A stretch of 64,000 bases of DNA from Deltaproteobacteria bacterium (GTDB taxonomy: Bacteria > Desulfobacterota > Deferrimicrobia > Deferrimicrobiales > Deferrimicrobiaceae), in the NCBI GenBank assembly GCA_021815305.1, contig JAKAHC010000001.1, positions 558,001 to 622,000 on the forward strand, given 5' to 3'. The translations under genes and the position numbers were made by a program. Under the pieces are notes generated by a model. The model was not told where the DNA came from and ran no database searches. It saw nothing but the letters and a program-made list of their open reading frames with translations. The first letter of the stretch is position 1, and the number at the start of each line of letters is the position of its first letter. Shown here piece by piece: positions 4,517 through 39,025 of this stretch.

Positions 4517-6442
4517 TTATTCTTCGGAAATATCGTCTGTATTGTTTGCATCCTGCCCAGGTTCGCCTCGCAGAGCCGCACGCTGGCAGTGGTAGGCAAG
4601 CAGGAATTCCCCGGTCAGGCGCTTGTCGGAAGTAAAATCGTCCGCCTCGAAAGAGCAGACGACTTCATCAAGCTCCGTTTGAACCTTATGAAGGAAACCA
4701 TGACGCTTGGCGTTCAGCCTGACCCTATACGGGGTCAAACCCGTTTCCAAGGTGCGCCACGTCGAGTAAGGCCGCTCGGCAAAACGTTGCATCAACTTTT
4801 CCGCGTTTGTCGCTCGTTTCTCGCCACCCACGTACAGTGCTCGGCTTTCCAGATGTTCGGCCAGCGCCAGCAAACGGCCGTAGAGGTAATCCCTGCTGTT
4901 TCGTTCCCTTTCCAGAGTCATGTCATAGTTCCTTTCCTTGTGGTGGTATCGAAAGAGCGCACACGCGATTCCAAGGGCTTTTTCCCATCCCCACAGTTCA
5001 ATGCCGTTCTTGCTGCTAGCCCTCCGAACGCACGATTCAACGATGTCGCACGGGATCGACGTACCATCTACAATGCAGGGGAGCAACCGTTCGACGGTAG
5101 CCTTCCGGAGCTTTTCATCAATGTAGAACGTTCCACCGCGCCATACGCCGAAGGCGGTTTCCGCAATATCACGCGGCGCGGGAGCGCCGAAAAACATCTT
5201 GTCCTTGCCGAAATATTGCCGCCAGCAACACCCGCCATGCCATGTAAGGATTCTTTTGAGAAACTCGGAACCCGTCAGTTCTCTGTAATAACGAATCGCC
5301 ATGCGCCCCGGCGTAGCGGAATCCAGAGCCATGACCACGACATCGTCCGTCGCGCCAAGCCTTGCGGAATAGCCACCGATGAGTTTCCTAAGCTGAATCC
5401 CCGTCTGCTGCGCGGTGTAGCCGCTTCCCGACGGCACCGGCTCCCCTCTTGCGCCAACGAGTAGGGATAGCGTGTCGACAAAGAGGTCAGGAATGCTCGC
5501 CCCTGATACCGCCCATGCGGCAACGGCCTGATCGCCATCCCGCCTTCCTTGCCGTGCAATGAGCCAGCGCAAGGCGTTGTGCGCCTTTTGCGTCACCCGG
5601 AACCCGACACCGCACGCTTCTTCAGCCGAAGTAAAGCGCCCCCGAAAGGTGAATCCCGAGAGGTCATTGGAGGAGATCAGCTTGGCCTTGTCCCCATCAT
5701 TGCGGATTTTTGCAGGATGTTGCTTCGCAAGATCATCTTCAGCACCCGTGACAAGACAGAGTCCTTTGCGGCTCTCAAGACTGCCATAATAATCTGTCCA
5801 CGACTGCCACAATCGTTTGTCAAGCCAGACTTCGGGCTGAGGATCTCCGGGGATCTCCACACTCCACCTCACAAACGCATCTGCCTGCCAAGACTTGGCC
5901 TTTCCTTTGTTGTCGTATCCCCCGCCCAACTGTTTGAATATTTCCGGAGCGTTTCTTTTGTCCGGCCATTCGTTAACCAGTTTTGATGTGTTTTCATCGA
6001 CGTAGAGAACAGATGCCTTGACAAGGTCCGAAATGACCTGCTCCTTGCCCACGTACGCAGCGACTGCTTTCAGCTTCGGCTGACGATGGTCAGTTTCAAG
6101 CCATTTTTCGAGGAGAGAAAAGTAACTTCCAAAACAGGATTCCTTCTCTCCGCCAAATCTGGCATAGTCCGCTGCGACGTATTGCAACTTGTCGCACAAG
6201 GGATGAGGAGTCGTCCCACTCGTCCTTCCGGCCGATTCCTCGGTTGCCGGAATGATGGTTCTGGCCGCCGGCTTGGGAACCACCGAAGCCCTGAGAAAAT
6301 TCCCGTTTCCGTCAATAGCAATTGTGACATGGGCTTTCTGCGTGGTATGGCAAATCGGCAGCAGAGGGATGTCGTCATTTTCATTGCCAATTGCATCGGT
6401 GTTGTTCTCGTAGGTCCGGTAAAGCTTATCAAGCCAGCTCAT
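4517..6442 (-). CDS. cas8c: Cascade large subunit Cas8c (Csd1)
   Basis: This 641-residue protein is the large subunit that recognises the PAM and recruits Cas3. In I-C systems a small subunit (Cas11c) is also made from an internal start within this gene in studied members. The N terminus (MSWLDKLYRTYENNTDAIGN, then PLLPICHTTQKAHV) is characteristic of Csd1. The central region includes GRFTSAEEACGVGFRVTQKA and the C-terminal half contains RILTWHGGCCWRQYFGKDK and EHLESRALYVGG. The ATG at 6442 overlaps the cas5c stop as ATGA. An open frame continues upstream but overlaps cas5c and has no family similarity. Line 5761 is only about 48 % G+C by hand count. Confidence 0.95.
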   Translation of the reverse strand: MSWLDKLYRTYENNTDAIGNENDDIPLLPICHTTQKAHVTIAIDGNGNFLRASVVPKPAARTIIPATEESAGRTSGTTPHPLCDKLQYVAADYARFGGEKESCFGSYFSLLEKWLETDHRQPKLKAVAAYVGKEQVISDLVKASVLYVDENTSKLVNEWPDKRNAPEIFKQLGGGYDNKGKAKSWQADAFVRWSVEIPGDPQPEVWLDKRLWQSWTDYYGSLESRKGLCLVTGAEDDLAKQHPAKIRNDGDKAKLISSNDLSGFTFRGRFTSAEEACGVGFRVTQKAHNALRWLIARQGRRDGDQAVAAWAVSGASIPDLFVDTLSLLVGARGEPVPSGSGYTAQQTGIQLRKLIGGYSARLGATDDVVVMALDSATPGRMAIRYYRELTGSEFLKRILTWHGGCCWRQYFGKDKMFFGAPAPRDIAETAFGVWRGGTFYIDEKLRKATVERLLPCIVDGTSIPCDIVESCVRRASSKNGIELWGWEKALGIACALFRYHHKERNYDMTLERERNSRDYLYGRLLALAEHLESRALYVGGEKRATNAEKLMQRFAERPYSTWRTLETGLTPYRVRLNAKRHGFLHKVQTELDEVVCSFEADDFTSDKRLTGEFLLAYHCQRAALRGEPGQDANNTDDISEE

Positions 6443-7176
6443 GCTTCCAGTCCCTCCTCCCCAAGTCCAACGGACCTCGGCGGTTTGGGTATCATCTCCC
6501 GCACAAATTTGCGGATCGTGCATTCCTCGGGCCGGAAGAAAGTCACGATGCCATCCACCATCACCGGCTTCCAGAACCGGGATTGCAGTTCGTTTTTCCC
6601 GGTTTCGTCCGGGTAATCGAAGCCGTGGAACATGAGACCGTAGGCCAGTTCGCCGCAACCGTCATACTCGCCTTCCCCTTCACCAAATATGCAAGGTTCC
6701 ACATACCCTTGACATTCCCGAGTGCCTAGAAAGATGTCTTGCCGCCCGCCCTTCTCGACCATCCGTTGCGCGACGTGCCAGTGTTTTCGGTCATCGCGGT
6801 CACCTGCCATATCCTCACGGTAAGGATTCCATTCGAAGTGGGCCTCAACTTGGTACTCTACGTCAGCGAGGTAGTTGTAGATTGCCAAGGAGTAGAAAGG
6901 CTCCTCTTTTTTCTTCGAAGGGTCTTTCTTGCTCGGATAAACTCCAGAAAAATTTAGCGGCTTCATGTTTTTCGCCTGCGTGCGGATGCGTCGCATAATC
7001 CGCACCCTGTCAATAACCCATATGAAGGTCGGTTTCCAGTAGACGGACTTGGCGATCCCCTTGAGTGCCTCATAGGTCGGGATGTGGTATGAGCACTTCT
7101 CCCCGCCGATCTTCGTCAGTGGGTCGGTGAAGAGTGCAAACCACCCCCGCACCTTGAATTCAACCCGGTTTCTCAT
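6439..7176 (-). CDS. cas5c: crRNA-processing endoribonuclease Cas5c (Cas5d)
   Basis: In type I-C, which has no Cas6, Cas5c cuts the repeat hairpin and stays on the 5' handle of the crRNA. The predicted protein has 245 residues. It starts MRNRVEFKVRGWFALFTDP, a typical Cas5c opening, and continues with GGEKCSYHIPTYEALKGI and VYWKPTFIWVIDRVRI. The ATG at 7176 is preferred over the ATG at 7191 because it matches the family start and follows a full GGAGGTGA ribosome-binding site, though with short spacing. The 7191 start would overlap the cas3 stop as ATGA. Line 6901 is about 42 % G+C, the lowest value I counted in a gene here. Confidence 0.95.
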   Translation of the reverse strand: MRNRVEFKVRGWFALFTDPLTKIGGEKCSYHIPTYEALKGIAKSVYWKPTFIWVIDRVRIMRRIRTQAKNMKPLNFSGVYPSKKDPSKKKEEPFYSLAIYNYLADVEYQVEAHFEWNPYREDMAGDRDDRKHWHVAQRMVEKGGRQDIFLGTRECQGYVEPCIFGEGEGEYDGCGELAYGLMFHGFDYPDETGKNELQSRFWKPVMVDGIVTFFRPEECTIRKFVREMIPKPPRSVGLGEEGLEA

Positions 7177-7187
7177 GTCACCTCCCG

Positions 7188-9611
7188 TCATACGATGTGT
7201 GTCTTCATCCCGGAAACCTCTTCCATGCTTACCCCAAACTGCGGACTGTAGTGCCGTTCATCGAGGTAATAAATGCGGCTTCCTTCCCATATCTCGTACA
7301 GGCGTCCCTTTTCTTGCAATTTCAGGAACTCATACTGAAATAGGTTGACTGAAACCCGCTGTGCTTGCCTCAGTAGCTTGGATTGTTCTTCAAACCTCGA
7401 GACCGCGCATAAGGTCTGGATGATTTGATTCCCTTCTGGATCATAGGGCACGATCACCCCCTCTGTGGGGGAATCGATGACCTTAAAGGCCTTCGCCGCC
7501 GCCATAAACGACTGGCGAAGATGGAGCGGAGGGGATTGTTTCCGTGCGTGCATGTATACCTGCACCGACTTCTCGTTCATCGATAGCAGGGAGAGAATGT
7601 CATCATTCCTTCCGATTTTCGCTCGAGGGATGGGAAAAGCCATTTCGCGAGCCCTCTTGAAGAAATAGTAATCGTAGTAGCGGCTCATCGTTGTCGGACT
7701 CTGTAAATCGTCGTCGAATACAGATGGATCGGTGCGATACTCGCACAGGACTCGTTCTGCGATTTCCTTTCCCACCCTGATCTCGGATAGGCTGTCCAAA
7801 TTCTCGTTCGCCGGATTGACGATCAACACCTTGCCCATAGGCCTTAGGCCGTTGCGGTTACAGCGCCCTGCCGCCTGGGCGATGGATTCGATCCCGGCCA
7901 GATAACGTATCGCCGAACCGAAATCCACATCCACCCCGGCCTCGATAAGTTGAGTGCTGATACATATGACCGGCGTCGGAGCATCCGGATTCAGGCACTC
8001 CTTTATCTCGTCGAGCACTTTCATGCGATGGGTCGGGCACATGCCGGTGCTCAGGTGCCGGACGTGTTCGGGCCTGCCGTGCAGAAGCTGAAATAGTTCC
8101 CGCGCTTGGGCCTTCTTGTTGACGACGATCAGCACGCTTCCGGTTTCTTCCAGCAATTGCAGCGCCGTTTCCGCCACTTCCGCTGCGCTCCAGCCTCCGG
8201 ACTTGCACTTGTCTTCGATTGAAGCGCGACGCAACCTTCTGAATAGACCGACCGCATCGGTCACTATTTGGGAATCCGCAGAGAGTCGGGCAGCCCCCTT
8301 TGTTTTCTCCACTTTATCCAAGAGAGGTTGCGTCGCAGTGCAGAAGACAGCCGTCGACCCGCACTGACTGACCAGAAAATTTATAGCGTTGTTGAAGAGA
8401 TGGACGGTGCGAACTGGAAGGGTCTGAATCTCGTCGAAGACAATGACGGCATTGGCAAGCTGGTGCAGACGCCGCACGCCACGAGTGCCTGCGGCGAATA
8501 AGGTTTCCAGAAACTGCACGGCGGTCGTGTAGATGATCGGAGCGTCCCAGTTCTCGGAAAGCAACTTGCTTTGCCAAGTGTCTTGTTCCGGCGTCAGGTT
8601 CGAGTGATGCTCCAGCACGACATGCCCGCCGCTCTCTTCGATGGATGCGAACACGGAGCGGGCAACCCGGGCATTTTGGTCGATGATCGAATTATAGGGA
8701 ACCACATAAATGACGCGATCCATTCCGTGATGCTGCGCATGGTTCAACGCGAAACGGAGACTTGCCAAGGTCTTGCCGCCACCGGTGGGCACGGTGAGTT
8801 GATAAAATCCCTTTTCTCGTGCGGAAAACTTGAAACATGACGAAGAAATATCGGCGCGAATCCTGTCGATCTCGTTTCTTGCGGTGAAGCCCGCAAGATG
8901 GGCTTCCAGTTTTTCGATCAGCAACGGCCATTCCGGCTTGGGATTCGGCTCGCGTTCCGCCGAATTCAGACGATCCGCATCGATTAACGCGCTGAAAAGA
9001 AAACGGGCCAGAAACCCTAGTGCGAATTGCCTTATTACCACCGACTGCTCGCCTCCGAAAAGACGGTCAAGCCGCTCACGCAATTCACACTCTATTGATG
9101 AGGAAGCCAGCAATTTATCGATACAACGGCGAACAGACAGGTCAACCTTGGCCTTCGCTTCCTCAGCGTGCGTCCGTTCATCCGGCTTTTCCATGCGCTT
9201 ATTGAATACATCTTCACCGTCCGGGGATAAGCAGTCGATCAGACCGGAATGGTGAGACACGATGCAGAGCGCCATGATTTGCGCAGCGATCTCGCGATAC
9301 GGAGATTTCCCCCTGCGCTCATAAACGTATTGAGCCCCGGCGGTGGAGTGGTCAATTTTCCCCCGCAGCCGTTCAGCTTCAACATATTCTTCGTCATCCG
9401 GTTCGATCCGTCCTTCTGCGGATTTGATATATGCTTGGAACGTATCCGAATATTTGCCGAAATCATGGAGGAGACCCATCAACTCACCAAGGGTCGAAAG
9501 ACAAATTTTTCCTGCGAATGCCGATGCAAGACGAGAAACACCTTCAAGATGCTCAAGCAGGCTTTGGGGGGTGCCGTCCGATTTCCTGTACCTTGCGACA
9601 TATTCCGTCAT
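7188..9611 (-). CDS. cas3: Cas3 HD nuclease-helicase (type I-C)
   Basis: This 807-residue protein unwinds and degrades target DNA once Cascade is bound. An N-terminal HD nuclease domain is visible with H21, the HD pair H49-D50 (GLLHDFGK), DHSTAG near 87-92, SHHSG at 119-123 and DADRL at 211-215. The SF2 helicase follows with Walker A VPTGGGKTLAS at about 274-284, the box FDEIQTLP near 392-399 (DEIQ rather than DEAH), ISTQLIEAGVDVDFG and QAAGRCNRNG. All key residues are present, so the enzyme should be active. It is the first gene of the operon; its stop lies next to the cas5c start region. The upstream Shine-Dalgarno is weak. Confidence 0.97.
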   Translation of the reverse strand: MTEYVARYRKSDGTPQSLLEHLEGVSRLASAFAGKICLSTLGELMGLLHDFGKYSDTFQAYIKSAEGRIEPDDEEYVEAERLRGKIDHSTAGAQYVYERRGKSPYREIAAQIMALCIVSHHSGLIDCLSPDGEDVFNKRMEKPDERTHAEEAKAKVDLSVRRCIDKLLASSSIECELRERLDRLFGGEQSVVIRQFALGFLARFLFSALIDADRLNSAEREPNPKPEWPLLIEKLEAHLAGFTARNEIDRIRADISSSCFKFSAREKGFYQLTVPTGGGKTLASLRFALNHAQHHGMDRVIYVVPYNSIIDQNARVARSVFASIEESGGHVVLEHHSNLTPEQDTWQSKLLSENWDAPIIYTTAVQFLETLFAAGTRGVRRLHQLANAVIVFDEIQTLPVRTVHLFNNAINFLVSQCGSTAVFCTATQPLLDKVEKTKGAARLSADSQIVTDAVGLFRRLRRASIEDKCKSGGWSAAEVAETALQLLEETGSVLIVVNKKAQARELFQLLHGRPEHVRHLSTGMCPTHRMKVLDEIKECLNPDAPTPVICISTQLIEAGVDVDFGSAIRYLAGIESIAQAAGRCNRNGLRPMGKVLIVNPANENLDSLSEIRVGKEIAERVLCEYRTDPSVFDDDLQSPTTMSRYYDYYFFKRAREMAFPIPRAKIGRNDDILSLLSMNEKSVQVYMHARKQSPPLHLRQSFMAAAKAFKVIDSPTEGVIVPYDPEGNQIIQTLCAVSRFEEQSKLLRQAQRVSVNLFQYEFLKLQEKGRLYEIWEGSRIYYLDERHYSPQFGVSMEEVSGMKTHIV

Positions 9612-24977: not shown

Positions 24978-26708
24978 TTACGTCGCCCGCCCGAGGGATT
25001 CGCGCACCTTCCGCAACAGGGCGGACGGGGTGTAGGGCTTCTGGAGGAAAGCGGCTTCCGAGTTCCGGACTCCGTGGTGGACGACGGCGTCGGCAGTGTA
25101 GCCCGACATGTACAGCACTTTCATCTCCGGTCTTCGCGCGGAGAGATGTTCCGCCAGTTCCCGGCCGCTCATGTTCGGCATCACCACGTCCGTCACCAGG
25201 AGATGGATCGGACTTGCGTGCCGTGACGCCAGGGAGAGGGCATCCTCGCCACAGGACGCCTCAAGGACGGTGTACCCGGCCTTTCGGAGAACTTCCCGGA
25301 CCAGATGGCGCACGATTTCCTCGTCTTCCACCAAGAGAAGGGTTTCGTGTCCCGCGGAGGCGTCGGATGCCTCCGCGCATTGCACTGCGTTATCGCTCGC
25401 CTCGGGAAACGAAGGCAGATAGATCCGGAACGTCGTCCCGCTTCCCGGCTCGCTGCTCACCGCGACATGCCCTTCGCTCTGCTTCACGATCCCGTAGACC
25501 GTGGACAGCCCCAGCCCCGTCCCCTTCCCGATCTCCTTCGTCGTAAAGAAAGGTTCGAAGATGTGCCCAAGGGTTTCCGCGTCCATCCCGCAGCCGGTAT
25601 CGGAAATGCTCAAGACCGTGAAAAGTCCGGAGACCTCCGCGCCGCCTTCGTAGAGGACCGCCCCGTCCAGTTTTCCGTTCGCCGTTTCGATCGTGAGCTT
25701 CCCTCCCCCCGACATCGCGTCGCGCGCGTTCACCGCCAGGTTCATGATCACCTGTTCGATCTGCCCGGGATCGGCCTTCACCCGCCACAGCCCGGGATCG
25801 AGGATCGTCACCAGTTCGACATCCTCTCCGATCAACCGCCGGAGCATCGTCTCCGTGTCGGATACCACCTCGTTCAGATCCAGCACCTTCATCCGGAAGA
25901 CCTGGCGTCGGCTGTACGCCAGGAGTTGCAGGGTCAGTTTCGCCGCCCGCTCCCCCGCTTTCAGGATCTCCTCCACGTCCTTCCGCAACGGGTCGCCTTC
26001 CGCGAACTTGGAAAGGAGCATGGCGCCATAGCCGTTGATCACCATCAGGAGGTTGTTGAAATCGTGGGCGATCCCACCCGCGAGTCTTCCTACCGCTTCC
26101 GTCTTTTGCGACTGGCGCAGGCGCTCTTCGCTCTCCAGCAACGCCTTCTCGGTCCGCCTGCGCTTCTCCTCGACCCCGATGGCGGAGGCGATGGCGCCCA
26201 TCGTCCGAAGGTCGTCCTCGGTCGGGATGAAATCGTTCTGGTACACCAGGCACAGGGAACCGTCCTCCCCGCCGCCGGTCCGGACTCTCAGCCCGATGTA
26301 CGTTCGTAGCCCGTAGGGGACCACGTTCGGGTCGGTCGCCGCATAGTGGGTCGCGGGCAGGTTCCGGATCACGAGGGCATCGTCCCTGTTCCGGCGGATC
26401 ACGTCGTAACAGATATGACCCTCCGGCCGATCCACGGGGTTGTAACCGGGCGGTGTGTTCCATTGCCCCCAGGAGCAGAGCATCCCCTGGTCGATGCGGT
26501 TGTAGAGGGCGCACGCCGCGCCCAGCAGCTCTCCGCAGACGGCGGTGAGGCGGTTGATGTTCTCCTTCGGATCCGATCCGAAACCGAGGAAACATTCGTT
26601 GATCTTCGCCAGGCGCACTTCGGCGCGATTCCGCCCGGCGACTTCGACGATTGCGCCCTGCGCCGTTTCCGCAAGGGCCCGGAATCCGTTGTCGCTCCCG
26701 GGTGTCAT
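24978..26708 (-). CDS. GAF hybrid histidine kinase with C-terminal receiver
   Basis: The 576-residue soluble protein has no signal peptide or membrane helix. Residues about 30-180 form a GAF-type sensor (CALYNRIDQGMLCSWGQW and YGLRTYIGLRVRTG fit a redox or small-molecule sensing GAF). A short coiled coil joins it to a HisKA domain with the phospho-accepting histidine H215 in GGIAHDFNNLL. The ATPase has NLAVNARDAMSGGG, ISDTGCGMD and FFTTKEIGKGTGLGLSTVYG. A C-terminal receiver domain (LLLVEDEEIVRHLV, phospho-Asp in VTDVVMPNMSG, and FLQKPYTP) follows. No partner regulator is adjacent, so output is unknown. It faces tatC. Confidence 0.93.
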   Translation of the reverse strand: MTPGSDNGFRALAETAQGAIVEVAGRNRAEVRLAKINECFLGFGSDPKENINRLTAVCGELLGAACALYNRIDQGMLCSWGQWNTPPGYNPVDRPEGHICYDVIRRNRDDALVIRNLPATHYAATDPNVVPYGLRTYIGLRVRTGGGEDGSLCLVYQNDFIPTEDDLRTMGAIASAIGVEEKRRRTEKALLESEERLRQSQKTEAVGRLAGGIAHDFNNLLMVINGYGAMLLSKFAEGDPLRKDVEEILKAGERAAKLTLQLLAYSRRQVFRMKVLDLNEVVSDTETMLRRLIGEDVELVTILDPGLWRVKADPGQIEQVIMNLAVNARDAMSGGGKLTIETANGKLDGAVLYEGGAEVSGLFTVLSISDTGCGMDAETLGHIFEPFFTTKEIGKGTGLGLSTVYGIVKQSEGHVAVSSEPGSGTTFRIYLPSFPEASDNAVQCAEASDASAGHETLLLVEDEEIVRHLVREVLRKAGYTVLEASCGEDALSLASRHASPIHLLVTDVVMPNMSGRELAEHLSARRPEMKVLYMSGYTADAVVHHGVRNSEAAFLQKPYTPSALLRKVRESLGRAT

Positions 26709-35189: not shown

Positions 35190-35471
35190 ATGGCGGAGAT
35201 CTCCGAAGCCCACGTCGTCGTGTCCGGCCGCGTGCAGGGGGTGTGGTTCCGCGGCAACACGCAGCGGGTGGCATCCGACGCCGGCGTGCTCGGGTACGTG
35301 CGCAACCTGCCCGGCAGGCAGGTGGAGGCGGTCCTCCAGGGGGAGCGCGCGGCGGTGGAGCGGGTGATCGACTTCATGCGGGTGGGACCGCCGGGCGCCG
35401 CGGTGAGTGACATCGTGGTCTCCTGGCGCGCGGCGGTGGGAACGTACCATGGATTCCGGATCCGCTACTGA
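35190..35471 (+). CDS. acyP: Acylphosphatase
   Basis: The 93-residue protein has the acylphosphatase loop VSGRVQGVWFRGNTQRVA, with the substrate-binding arginine and the conserved asparagine in GYVRNLPGRQVEAVLQG. It hydrolyses acyl phosphates such as carbamoyl phosphate or 1,3-bisphosphoglycerate. It follows ligA by 3 bp. The last 23 bp overlap the beginning of the AmrS-like gene in another frame, an unusually long overlap for this operon. Confidence 0.95.
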   Translation: MAEISEAHVVVSGRVQGVWFRGNTQRVASDAGVLGYVRNLPGRQVEAVLQGERAAVERVIDFMRVGPPGAAVSDIVVSWRAAVGTYHGFRIRY

Positions 35472-36453
35472 CGGCGGGGTCGCGGCGTACTGGCGGTCCG
35501 ACGGGGAAGCCGTCCGGTGCGAACTGTGCCCGCACCGGTGCCGCATCGCCCCGGGGACGGAGGGGATCTGCCGCGTCCGGGAGAACCGGGACGGCACGCT
35601 GTTCGCGGCCACCTACGGGAAGGTCGCCGCGGTCGCGGTCGACCCGGTCGAGAAGAAGCCCCTGTACCACTTTCACCCCGGTTCCCGCATCCTCTCCATC
35701 GGCTCCGTGGGCTGCAACTTCCGCTGCGAGTTCTGCCAGAACTGGCACCTCGTGGAGAAGAAGGTCCCCCTGGAGAACGTGCGGATCGACGAACTGGTCA
35801 AGACGGCGCGCCGCGAGGGGTCGGTGGGGATCGCCTACACCTACAACGAGCCCCTGATCCAGTTCGAGTTCGTCCTTGCCTGCTCCAAGGCGTTCCGGGA
35901 GGCGGGGATGAAGAACGTCCTGGTCACCAACGGGTATGTGAACCCCGGGCCGCTTTCGGAGCTTCTCCCGTACGTGGACGCGATGAACATCGACCTCAAG
36001 TCGATGGACCCGGCCTTCTACCGCGAGGTGTGCGGCGGGGAACTCGCGCCGGTACTCGAGACGGTCCGGGCCGCGGCCGGGGCGACCCACGTGGAGATCA
36101 CCACGCTCCTGTACACGGGGCGCAACGACGGGGACGATCCGGTGCGCAGGGTGATCGACTTCGTGGCGGAGACGGACCCGGAGATCCCTCTCCACTTCTC
36201 CCGCTACTTTCCGCAAGCCCGCGCCACGGCTCCTCCGACGCCGGTCGGGCGGCTCGCGGCCGCCTTCCGGACGGCGAGGGAACGGCTTCCCTATGTCTAT
36301 GTCGGGAACCACCGGCTGCCGGGCGCGGAGGACACCTCGTGCCCCCGTTGCGGCGCGGTGGTGGTGCGCAGGGAAGGGTACGGCGCCGATCCGCGTGGGC
36401 TGTCCGGCAACCGCTGCGCTTCTTGCGGCGAACGACTCCGATTCGTGGTATAA
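35449..36453 (+). CDS. amrS: AmrS-type radical SAM enzyme (AmmeMemoRadiSam family)
   Basis: The 334-residue protein matches the radical SAM member of the AmmeMemoRadiSam set. An N-terminal cysteine block (CELCPHRCRIAPGTEGICRV) precedes the SAM cluster motif CNFRCEFCQNWH (CxxxCxxC). GIAYTYNEPLIQFEFVL, TNGYVNPGPLSELLPYVDAM and DLKSMDPAFYREVCGG follow in family order. The C terminus is a zinc-ribbon-like segment with CPRCG and CASCG. The ATG at 35449 overlaps acylphosphatase by 23 bp. No AMMECR1 or Memo gene is adjacent. The reaction is unknown for this family. Confidence 0.92.
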   Translation: MDSGSATDGGVAAYWRSDGEAVRCELCPHRCRIAPGTEGICRVRENRDGTLFAATYGKVAAVAVDPVEKKPLYHFHPGSRILSIGSVGCNFRCEFCQNWHLVEKKVPLENVRIDELVKTARREGSVGIAYTYNEPLIQFEFVLACSKAFREAGMKNVLVTNGYVNPGPLSELLPYVDAMNIDLKSMDPAFYREVCGGELAPVLETVRAAAGATHVEITTLLYTGRNDGDDPVRRVIDFVAETDPEIPLHFSRYFPQARATAPPTPVGRLAAAFRTARERLPYVYVGNHRLPGAEDTSCPRCGAVVVRREGYGADPRGLSGNRCASCGERLRFVV

Positions 36454-36461
36454 ACCAACCG

Positions 36462-36737
36462 ATGGATCGTTCGAGCCTTCACGGCCGCCGGCGCGCCCTT
36501 GCGGGGACCGGGACTGCGATCGTCCTTGTCACCCTCCTCCTCGTCCTTTGCCTGTTTCCCGGCGCATCGACCGCCCGCGCGGCCGACGAAGCGAAGACGG
36601 CGACCTTCGAGGGCCGCGCCGCCGCGGAGCGGGAGAGCCGTTCCCGCTACCGGGATCTCGAGGTGGCGTCCCTGGTGATCATCCTCGTCGCGGGCGGCGT
36701 GGCCGTCATCTGGGCCGTCCGGAGGAAGAAACCATGA
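36462..36737 (+). CDS. Small two-helix membrane protein coupled to a response regulator
   Basis: I do not recognise this 91-residue protein. It has a signal-peptide-like N-terminal helix (TAIVLVTLLLVLCLFPGAS) ending in a possible ARAADE cleavage site. A charged stretch of about 25 residues (EGRAAAERESRSRYRD) is followed by a C-terminal membrane helix (VASLVIILVAGGVAVIWAV) with a basic tail RRKKP. After cleavage it would be a one-helix inner-membrane protein with a short periplasmic domain. The stop overlaps the response-regulator start as ATGA, so the two proteins are made together, and a sensory or anchoring role is a reasonable guess. Confidence 0.7.
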   Translation: MDRSSLHGRRRALAGTGTAIVLVTLLLVLCLFPGASTARAADEAKTATFEGRAAAERESRSRYRDLEVASLVIILVAGGVAVIWAVRRKKP

Positions 36738-37951
36738 CGGCGACCGCCCTGAAACGGATCCTCGTGGTCGACGACGAGCCGATGATCCTCACGCTCCTCT
36801 CCGCGGTCCTGCGGGAGAAGGGCTGGGACGTCGTCGAGGCCCGTTCCGGGACCGAAGGGATCGAGATGCTGGAGCGCGCGGGGTTCGACGTCATCCTCAC
36901 GGACCTGGTGATGCCGGGGGACAGCGGCATCGAGCTCCTCCGGGCCGCCAAGGAGATCCACCCCGACGTCGAGGTGATCCTCATGACGGGGTACGCCACG
37001 GCGGACACGGCCATCGAGGCGATGCGCGGCGGAGCGTTCCACTACCTCGTCAAGCCGCTGAAGATCGAGGAAGTGGTCATCCTGGCGGACAAGGCGTACG
37101 CACAGCGGCGGCTGCAGCGCGAAAACCAGTTCCTCAAATCCGAGATCCGCGGCGGGTACCAGATCCAGTCCGTCGTGGGGGACAGCGAAGCGGTCGAGCG
37201 GCTTGTCGCCTCCCTGCAGGGGATCGCGAACACCGACGACCCGGTCCTCCTGATCGGGGAGCGCGGGACGGGAAGGAACTTCTTCGCCCGCTTCGTTCAC
37301 TTCAACAGTTCGCGGGCCGCGGGTCTTTTCGTCCCCGTCTACTGCGCCGGCGCCGCGGGGGAGAGGGTCGTCGCCGACCTGGTCGGGCAGGGTCCCGCGG
37401 GGGGCGAGCGCCAGGGCATCCCGCACCCGGGGAAAATGGAGCTGGCGAACCGCGGCACCCTCTATCTCGCCGACATCGGGGAAGCGGGCCGGGAGGCCCT
37501 CGGGAAGCTGGACCGGTTCCTCGCCACGAAGCGGATCGCTCCCGCAGGAAGCGCGAAAGAGATCTCGCCCGACGTCAGGATCGTCGCCTCCACCTCCGTT
37601 CCCGCCGAAGAGCTTGCCCGCGACGGCAACCTGCCGCCGGCGATGCTGAAGGCATTCGAGGCGGGGACCGTCCACATTCCCCCCCTGCGGGAGCGCCGCG
37701 AGGAGATCCCGCTTCTGCTCCACCACTTCCTCCAGGAGACGAACCGGGAGAGAAGGAAACCCCTGCGGGGATTCACTTCCGCGGCCCTTTCCATCCTGGA
37801 GCCGTACGACTGGCCGGGCAACGTCCGCGAGCTTCGGGACCTTGTCCACGCCATCGCGGCGAAGAAGAAGCAGGGGACGATGATCGACGCTTCGGACATC
37901 CCCCCCGAGATCATCTACCGCCGGCTGCGCAGGAAAGAATCGCCGGCGTAA
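36734..37951 (+). CDS. NtrC-like response regulator with degenerate AAA+ domain
   Basis: The 405-residue protein has a normal receiver domain: acidic pocket D13-D14 (LVVDDEPM), phospho-acceptor D57 (LTDLVMPG) and K107 (HYLVKP). The following AAA+ domain keeps the overall NtrC scaffold (IQSVVGDSEAVERL; RIVASTSVPAEELA; IPPLRERREEIPLLLHHF; LEPYDWPGNVREL). However, Walker A is GERGTGRN in place of GESGTGKE, Walker B is GTLYLADIG in place of GTLFLDEIG, the GAFTGA loop that contacts sigma54 is replaced by LVGQGPAGGERQG, and no C-terminal DNA-binding helix-turn-helix is present. It probably cannot hydrolyse ATP or activate sigma54 and may act by protein binding. Confidence 0.9.
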   Translation: MTATALKRILVVDDEPMILTLLSAVLREKGWDVVEARSGTEGIEMLERAGFDVILTDLVMPGDSGIELLRAAKEIHPDVEVILMTGYATADTAIEAMRGGAFHYLVKPLKIEEVVILADKAYAQRRLQRENQFLKSEIRGGYQIQSVVGDSEAVERLVASLQGIANTDDPVLLIGERGTGRNFFARFVHFNSSRAAGLFVPVYCAGAAGERVVADLVGQGPAGGERQGIPHPGKMELANRGTLYLADIGEAGREALGKLDRFLATKRIAPAGSAKEISPDVRIVASTSVPAEELARDGNLPPAMLKAFEAGTVHIPPLRERREEIPLLLHHFLQETNRERRKPLRGFTSAALSILEPYDWPGNVRELRDLVHAIAAKKKQGTMIDASDIPPEIIYRRLRRKESPA

Positions 37952-37993: not shown

Positions 37994-39025
37994 ATGAAGG
38001 CAGCGTTTTTCCGAGAACACGGGGGACCCGAGAGGATCGAGTACGGGGAACTGCCGGAGCCGGTCCCGGGGCCCGGGCAGGTGCGGATGAAGGTCCGCGC
38101 CGGGGCGCTCAACCACCTGGACATCTTCGTCCGCAACGGCATCCCGGGGATCCCGCAGGCGCTCCCCCACGTGATGGGTTCCGACGGGGCGGGGGTGATC
38201 GAGTCGACGGGGCCGGGGGTGACCCGGGTGAAGCCGGGCGACGAGGTGGTCCTCAATCCCGGGATCCATTGCGGGGAGTGCGAGTTCTGCATGCGGGGGG
38301 AACATTCCCTCTGCGTCGCTTTCCGCCTCATCGGGGAGCACATCGCGGGCACATACGCAGAGTACGTGATCGCTCCCGCCGTCAACGCCTACCCCAAGCC
38401 GGCGGAGCTCACATGGGAAGAGGCGGCGGCGTTTCCCCTCACGTTCCTCACCGCGTGGCGGATGCTCGTGACCAAGGCGCGCGCCGTTCCCGGGGAGTCG
38501 CTGCTGATCATCGGCATCGGGGGAGGGGTCGCCGTGGCGGCCCTGCAGATCGCAAAACGCATCGGCCTGACCGTCTACGCCACCTCGGGGAGCCCCGCGA
38601 AGCTCGCCAGGGCGAAGGAGCTCGGCGCGGACGGCGTCATCGACCACGCGCAGACGGACTTCTCCAGGGAAATCCGGAGGCTCACGGGAAAGCGCGGCGT
38701 GGACATCGTGCTGGACTCCGTGGGAAAGGCGACCTGGAAGCGGTCGATCGCCTCCGCGGCGAAGGGAGGCCGCCTCCTCACGTGCGGCGCCACCACCGGC
38801 CCGGACCCCGAAACCGACCTGGGCCGCATCTTCTGGAACCAGCTGACCGTCTACGGATCGACGATGGGGACCCACGCCGAATTCGCGGGGATGCTCCCGA
38901 TCTTCCGGGACGGGAAGGTCAAGCCCGTGGTCGACGCGGTGTTCCCGCTGGCGGAGGCGAGGAGGGCGGTGGCGCGGCTGGAGGAAAAGGGGCAGTTCGG
39001 GAAGATCGTCCTGCGGGTCGATTGA
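37994..39025 (+). CDS. Zinc-type medium-chain alcohol dehydrogenase/reductase
   Basis: The 343-residue MDR enzyme begins MKAAFFREHGGPERIEYGEL. The structural-zinc region is present (GIHCGECEFCMRGEHSLC with four cysteines). MGSDGAGVIESTGPGVTRVK precedes a Rossmann domain with the glycine motif LLIIGIGGGVAVAALQIAK and VDIVLDSVGKATWKRSI. The usual first catalytic-zinc Cys is replaced by an NHLD element (GALNHLDIFV), so the fold is closer to quinone-reductase-like members. Substrate is unknown; NADPH- or NADH-dependent reduction or oxidation of an alcohol, enone or acyl-CoA is possible. GAGGAGG precedes the ATG. Confidence 0.85.
   Translation: MKAAFFREHGGPERIEYGELPEPVPGPGQVRMKVRAGALNHLDIFVRNGIPGIPQALPHVMGSDGAGVIESTGPGVTRVKPGDEVVLNPGIHCGECEFCMRGEHSLCVAFRLIGEHIAGTYAEYVIAPAVNAYPKPAELTWEEAAAFPLTFLTAWRMLVTKARAVPGESLLIIGIGGGVAVAALQIAKRIGLTVYATSGSPAKLARAKELGADGVIDHAQTDFSREIRRLTGKRGVDIVLDSVGKATWKRSIASAAKGGRLLTCGATTGPDPETDLGRIFWNQLTVYGSTMGTHAEFAGMLPIFRDGKVKPVVDAVFPLAEARRAVARLEEKGQFGKIVLRVD

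Follow-up and report, generated by a model that had tools for sequence, protein, structure and literature searches.

Results

A response regulator gene overlaps the gene of a small membrane protein

The window, by which we mean the whole 64,000-nucleotide stretch of DNA analysed here, carries on its forward strand a gene for a 91-residue membrane protein whose end overlaps, by the letters ATGA, the start of a gene for a 405-residue response regulator (Table 1). This gene pair, to which a preliminary description of the DNA had drawn attention, is real. Pfam assigns the regulator to Response_reg (3.8e-27), Sigma54_activat (1.4e-24) and AAA_lid_14 (3.5e-23), all well above cut-off, and finds no helix-turn-helix (HTH) in it. 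When its AAA+ region is aligned with those of 16 paralogues from the same genome, GERGTGR stands in place of GESGTGK and LADIG in place of LDEIG, and both GAFTGA and the FREDLYYRL arginine-finger segment are absent. An AF2 model (mean pLDDT 82) consists of the receiver, a long helix, the AAA+ core and the lid; its nearest solved structure, at 34% identity, is that of the Aquifex NtrC1 receiver-AAA protein in its inactive state (1ny5), and VpsR (7v2b) is among the fold matches.

Table 1. Genes, domains and motifs of the regulator locus in the window
Feature	Position	Strand	Basis
AmrS-like radical SAM protein, constant upstream neighbour (start inferred)	35449..36453	+	PF04055; synteny
Small membrane protein, 91 aa: signal-peptide-like segment, about 35 aa, one TM, tail RRKKP	36462..36737	+	sequence, profile; homologous to N-terminal part of PilZ-type membrane protein
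Pseudo-NtrC response regulator (ATPase-dead, HTH-less), 405 aa	36734..37951	+	motifs, Pfam, orthologs
Receiver domain, complete phosphorylation site (D13, D14, D57, T85, K107)	36758..37078	+	Pfam PF00072, residues 9-115; invariant in 19/19
Long linker helix between receiver and AAA+, residues 111-140	37064..37153	+	AF2 model; domain identities (conservation above intact paralogue)
Degenerate AAA+ sigma54-activator core, residues 148-318	37175..37687	+	Pfam, paralogue and ortholog alignment
Dead Walker A, GERGTGRN (Lys to Arg)	37256..37279	+	alignment, motif table
Site of lost GAFTGA loop, GQGPAGGER	37385..37411	+	alignment, motif table
Dead Walker B, LADIG (DE to AD)	37466..37480	+	alignment, motif table
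AAA+ lid, residues 319-400, strongly conserved; protein ends there, HTH absent	37688..37933	+	PF25601
Zinc-type alcohol dehydrogenase (ADH) family gene, usual downstream neighbour	37994..39025	+	Pfam; synteny

The class was sampled with 26 genomes from two families, namely 24 from the family of the window genome (f1, including the window genome G000 itself) and two from its sister family (f2). One f1 member, G012, agrees with GenBank CP070783.1 ('Deltaproteobacteria bacterium isolate bin162') at 9176 of 9176 bases; the window genome may come from a Deferrimicrobia-like lineage. Across f1 the gene order is constant: pgk, ligA, the acylphosphatase gene acyP, the amrS-like gene, the small gene where present, the regulator, and usually ADH, rsmI and paaK. 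Both genes are present, adjacent and co-directional in 19 of the 24 genomes. The ATGA overlap itself is not conserved, the two genes lying a few bases apart in several relatives. Nor is the small gene always found upstream, a point that the preliminary description had left to be checked: in G019 and G022 the regulator stands alone, beginning 8 bases after amrS with no space for a small gene. Conversely, regulator and ADH have been cleanly deleted in G018 (genus g8; L084, G018:C2, 7053-8310), in which the small gene, open and 91 codons long, is followed directly by rsmI. Neither gene is seen in the 1.1 and 0.7 kb that remain on the contig past amrS in G002 and G008, respectively. The loss in G018, and apparently in G002 and G008 as well, shows that the regulator is dispensable in some species. 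In G014 (L071, G014:C50), about 600 extra bases separate amrS from the small gene; they hold a small reading frame (6305-6535, reverse strand) that resembles the one following amrS in G008 (L225, 7247-7600).

No kinase gene adjoins the regulator. About 10 kb away, at 24978-26708 on the reverse strand of the window, lies a gene for what appears by eye to be a cytosolic, GAF-like histidine kinase of 576 residues with a C-terminal receiver.

The same residues are lost throughout the family

The disarmed regulator is present in 21 of the 24 f1 genomes: 20 have a disarmed-type match above 1e-90, and the twenty-first, G015, has a partial copy at a contig end. We compared residues in 19 full-length f1 sequences and in a set of 20 intact paralogues. 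All 19 disarmed sequences have Arg for the Walker A Lys and Ala or Ser for the Walker B Asp, whereas all 20 paralogues keep the Walker A Lys and the Walker B Asp-Glu. The Thr of GAFTGA is kept in 0/19, the loop being divergent, and the sensor-I Asn likewise in 0/19; of the two arginine fingers the first is found in no sequence and the second in one (1/19, a single Arg). The receiver Asp residues, D57 among them, together with T85 and K107, are invariant in 19/19. The Walker A, Walker B and GAFTGA losses reported from the window sequence, and its description of the receiver as functional in appearance, therefore hold for the window and for every full-length ortholog. With the Walker, GAFTGA, sensor-I and finger residues and the HTH function gone, the regulator cannot work as a normal sigma54 activator, as had been proposed; the annotation 'sigma-54-dependent regulator' is wrong for these genes.

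Because the losses are common to all 19 full-length orthologs they are not sequencing errors, and together with dN/dS values below 1 (see below) this rules out both such an error and a local pseudogene. Neither is the window copy a decayed version of a gene that close relatives keep intact, since intact homologues are confined to f2 and to a paralogue at another locus. Outside f1, a sample of 395 genomes from the phylum yielded no further member of the class of disarmed regulators (at least 51% identity), the next matches being at 39-40%. The matches listed from a scan of genome contigs with the ortholog alignment include generic NtrC proteins at 33-39% identity.

The DNA-binding segment probably degenerated before it was deleted

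The loss of the HTH, which the preliminary description had also noted, holds in full for the window regulator and its subclade (genera g1, g7 and g8), to which complete absence is limited. The other 15 of the 19 full-length orthologs are about 460 residues long and still have a degenerate C-terminal HTH-like segment, matched by Pfam HTH_8 in 11 of the 15 (best 3e-6). In the intact forms the recognition helix reads KRTT...KRK, with K, R, T and T in 20/20; in the disarmed orthologs it is mostly D/E-V-x-A, the KRTT...KRK contact residues are lost, and the net charge of the HTH is -1.5, compared with +6.4 in the intact set. Given these changes in recognition-helix residues and charge, DNA binding was probably lost in the ancestor of all f1. 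The segment itself appears to have been deleted once, later, in the g1/g7/g8 clade that includes the window.

The regulator descends from a flagellar-type sigma54 activator

Both f2 genomes encode an intact homologue, 40-42% identical to the window regulator and 75% identical between the two copies. It lies near amrS, clustered with FlgM (PF04316 matches at 1e-11 and 1.5e-8), a MinD/FlhG-like ATPase, a FliA-like sigma factor and a membrane protein with PilZ features. In both cases (L081 and L082) flgM, the regulator, flhG and fliA directly adjoin amrS, ligA and the acylphosphatase gene, so that genes of flagellar regulation and housekeeping genes are neighbours here. Most f1 genomes also possess an intact regulator, 57-63% identical to that of f2, at a separate locus that in many genomes has the order flgM-RR-(kinase)-fliA.

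In a phylogenetic tree, the disarmed, intact f1 and f2 sequences form a single clade (100/100). The disarmed sequences group together inside it (100/100), and their stem is 1.21 changes per site long. Support for the place of the disarmed copy within the larger clade, beside the f2 regulator or beside the f1 paralogue, is 86/69, and the AU test allows all three orders (p about 0.5 for the alternatives). Fold and ancestry are thus of NtrC type: receiver, Sigma54_activat and lid domains are all present, and the disarmed sequences are monophyletic with intact members. Since the intact relatives reside beside flgM, flhG, fliA and amrS or at a flgM-fliA locus, the window regulator is shown to be an ancient, conserved and disarmed copy of a flagellar-type sigma54 response regulator. 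This is most simply explained if the gene duplicated early, near the base of either the class or f1, and one of the copies stayed beside amrS, changed quickly and became fixed in a new role.

FlhA is absent from the window genome. A tie between the disarming and the loss of flagella is not supported, however, as FlhA is present in f1 genomes that have the disarmed gene (for example G001, G007, G010 and G021). Several f1 genomes in which FlhA was not found carry FlgM, an intact sigma54-type regulator and a FliA-like sigma factor together, as in G002 (L120, 4501-7973), G012 (L123), G006 (L126) and G004 (L128); the sigma28/anti-sigma module may outlive the flagellum.

Constraint is redistributed among the domains

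For every pair and every domain of the disarmed regulator dN/dS is below 1, with ranges of 0.07-0.35 for the receiver, 0.12-0.49 for the linker plus AAA core and 0.07-0.24 for the lid; these values, obtained by the Nei-Gojobori method, are rough, because some dS are near 1. We also compared domain identities between disarmed and intact copies over the same genome pairs, drawn from the 16 genomes that carry both. The receiver is about equally conserved in the two (0.67 disarmed, 0.70 intact). The AAA core is much less conserved in the disarmed copy (0.53 versus 0.79), whereas the linker (0.63 versus 0.53) and the lid (0.72 versus 0.61) are more so, which implies that the ATPase core has been released and that constraint on linker and lid has been raised. 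Constraint has thus shifted away from the ATPase core towards receiver, linker and lid, a pattern that points to a function still kept and based on these three parts.

This redistribution bears on three other readings of the regulator. That it is a slowly decaying flagellar-regulator pseudogene with no function left would be in keeping with the long stem of its clade, the secondary loss of the HTH, the missing regulator in G018 and the lack of FlhA in the window genome. We nevertheless regard decay as highly improbable: the frame is still open in 21 genomes (in some of them truncated at a contig end), dN/dS is below 1 in every domain and pair, the receiver site is invariant, and constraint has been reorganised, not uniformly relaxed. 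A receiver that does no more than drain phosphoryl groups from the kinase of a paralogous regulator, with the rest of the protein as a scaffold, would fit the invariant active site and the want of a recognisable output; such a phosphate sink would not, however, need a lid and a linker conserved beyond those of the working paralogue, and we judge it quite unlikely.

The third reading makes the disarmed protein a dominant-negative or regulatory subunit of a hetero-oligomer with an intact sigma54 activator, the first candidate being its own flgM-fliA paralogue; in its phosphorylated state it would poison or tune the ring. The conserved receiver, linker and lid are the parts that carry dimer and ring contacts in the NtrC family, the intact paralogue is encoded in 16 of the 19 genomes that have the disarmed copy at full length, and FleQ/FleT provide a precedent for hetero-oligomers (PMC7277832). 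On the other hand, the protein no longer has the arginine fingers and the nucleotide pocket, through which most ring contact is made, and G019 as well as G000 and G014 (both 97% complete) give no match of the intact-paralogue class, so that the paralogue is not an obligatory partner. We see co-assembly as unlikely.

The small protein resembles the membrane part of a PilZ-type protein

Twenty f1 homologues of the small protein, 74-99 residues long, share a signal-peptide-like hydrophobic segment, one transmembrane segment and a tail RRK or RRKKP, which leaves 3-5 C-terminal residues in the cytoplasm. The motif R..AE..SRSRYR.LE.ASL and the transmembrane segment are strongly conserved among the 20. 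Outside f1, the small protein was not found in the 395 phylum genomes. The copy in the window has a Pfam match to Sperm_Ag_HE2, at 21.3 bits barely past the cut-off; as it falls on the signal-peptide-like segment, we took it to be spurious.

A profile of the f1 small proteins matches the f2 membrane protein of G025, encoded in the same position directly after amrS, with an i-E of 6.6e-8; its match to the G024 copy is weak (whole-sequence value 0.029). A PilZ domain is recognised in the protein of G024 (5.8e-6), and just a sub-threshold YcgR-type match in that of G025 (0.0033). In the f1 small protein the PilZ domain is absent and the N-terminal signal and transmembrane part alone remains. As the profile finds the f2 protein after amrS and the PilZ part is missing, the small protein is best read as the membrane part of the f2 PilZ-type protein, left after loss of the cytoplasmic domain. 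It is like the N-terminal signal and transmembrane part of membrane PilZ/YcgR-like proteins (PF07238, PF12945) from the same place in f2; these differ in having a cytoplasmic PilZ part of their own, wholly missing here.

The preliminary description had suggested a signalling pair, in which the regulator, once phosphorylated, finds its partner at the membrane. Binding to the small protein would then localise it or close a signal path across the membrane. The neighbouring, co-directional position in 19 of 24 genomes, with an overlap or a gap of a few bases in many, and the conserved motif and transmembrane segment of the small protein would suit this idea. We found it unsupported: the pair is broken in G018 (small gene only) and in G019 and G022 (regulator only), the stub offers just its few terminal residues to the cytoplasm, and the conserved motif would be periplasmic if the N-terminus is a signal peptide. 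Moreover, both genes are neighbours inherited from the older cluster, so gene adjacency alone is weak evidence. A direct pair is possible, with location as the sole positive evidence, and we hold it to be unlikely.

Discussion

A probable phosphorylation switch without the usual outputs

The reading we prefer, and consider probable, is that of a disarmed flagellar-type sigma54 regulator that has kept its receiver, linker and lid and whose output is phosphorylation-controlled protein binding, without ATP or DNA. On the f1 stem the protein lost its ATP-binding and hydrolysis residues, the sigma54 loop and the DNA-contact residues; the window's subclade later lost the whole HTH, and selection has been maintained on receiver active site, linker helix and lid. 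A histidine kinase would phosphorylate D57, and phosphorylation would shift the receiver-linker dimer between states, exposing or hiding a surface of receiver, linker and lid that binds another protein. With a partner-binding surface switched in this way, the output would be protein binding that calls for neither ATP nor DNA. The degenerate AAA domain could bind nucleotide or a ligand in some other way. The membrane stub would be left over from the same old module, in which it belonged to a membrane PilZ-type protein, and it is not necessarily the partner.

More tentatively, the regulators of the family may together constitute a 'pseudo-bEBP', an adaptor stripped of its ATPase, sigma and DNA functions and switched by phosphorylation through receiver, linker and lid, possibly at the membrane with the PilZ-type transmembrane remnant; a flagellar module would then have been turned into a non-transcriptional signalling device.

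Comparison with known regulators

Degenerate enhancer-binding proteins are known to lose one function at a time, either sigma54 contact or DNA binding. The disarmed regulator has the receiver-AAA+-lid architecture and the fold of Group 1 bEBPs of the NtrC/NtrC1/FlrC type, and its intact homologues sit with flgM, flhG and fliA. Unlike these, it is without the Walker A Lys, Walker B Asp, GAFTGA, sensor-I Asn, arginine fingers and a DNA-binding HTH. The bEBPs that have dispensed with GAFTGA share with it that loss and a retained family fold. They include Rhodobacter capsulatus NtrC, Caulobacter NtrC and VpsR (PMC10274813), and HupR, TyrR and DhaR (PMC3162934), all of which still act on DNA; the R. 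capsulatus protein depends on ATP binding, that of Caulobacter on its Walker residues (PMC10274813). The two NtrCs, HupR and VpsR act at sigma70 promoters, whereas here the nucleotide-site and the DNA-contact residues are both lost. A VpsR-like sigma70 regulator is ruled out by the lack of a DNA-binding HTH, which is missing from the window regulator and has lost its contact residues in the relatives.

The Group 5 bEBPs FlgR and CtcC are, like the window regulator, response regulators without an HTH (PMC7175178, PMC3162934). They are, however, listed as functional sigma54 activators (PMC7175178), whereas the disarmed regulator has a dead AAA+ domain and parted with its HTH later, as an event of its own. 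Our searches of open-access papers found no described bEBP-derived response regulator that has lost all three of the ATPase, sigma54 and DNA functions. The lineage also warns against the automatic label 'sigma-54-dependent regulator', which is wrong for these genes. In the disarmed lineage all outputs have been lost, yet the phosphate switch, the linker and the lid are under selection, and f2 and the paralogue still show the intact type. The lineage therefore amounts to a natural experiment that can reveal the capabilities of receiver, linker and lid in NtrC proteins when these act alone.
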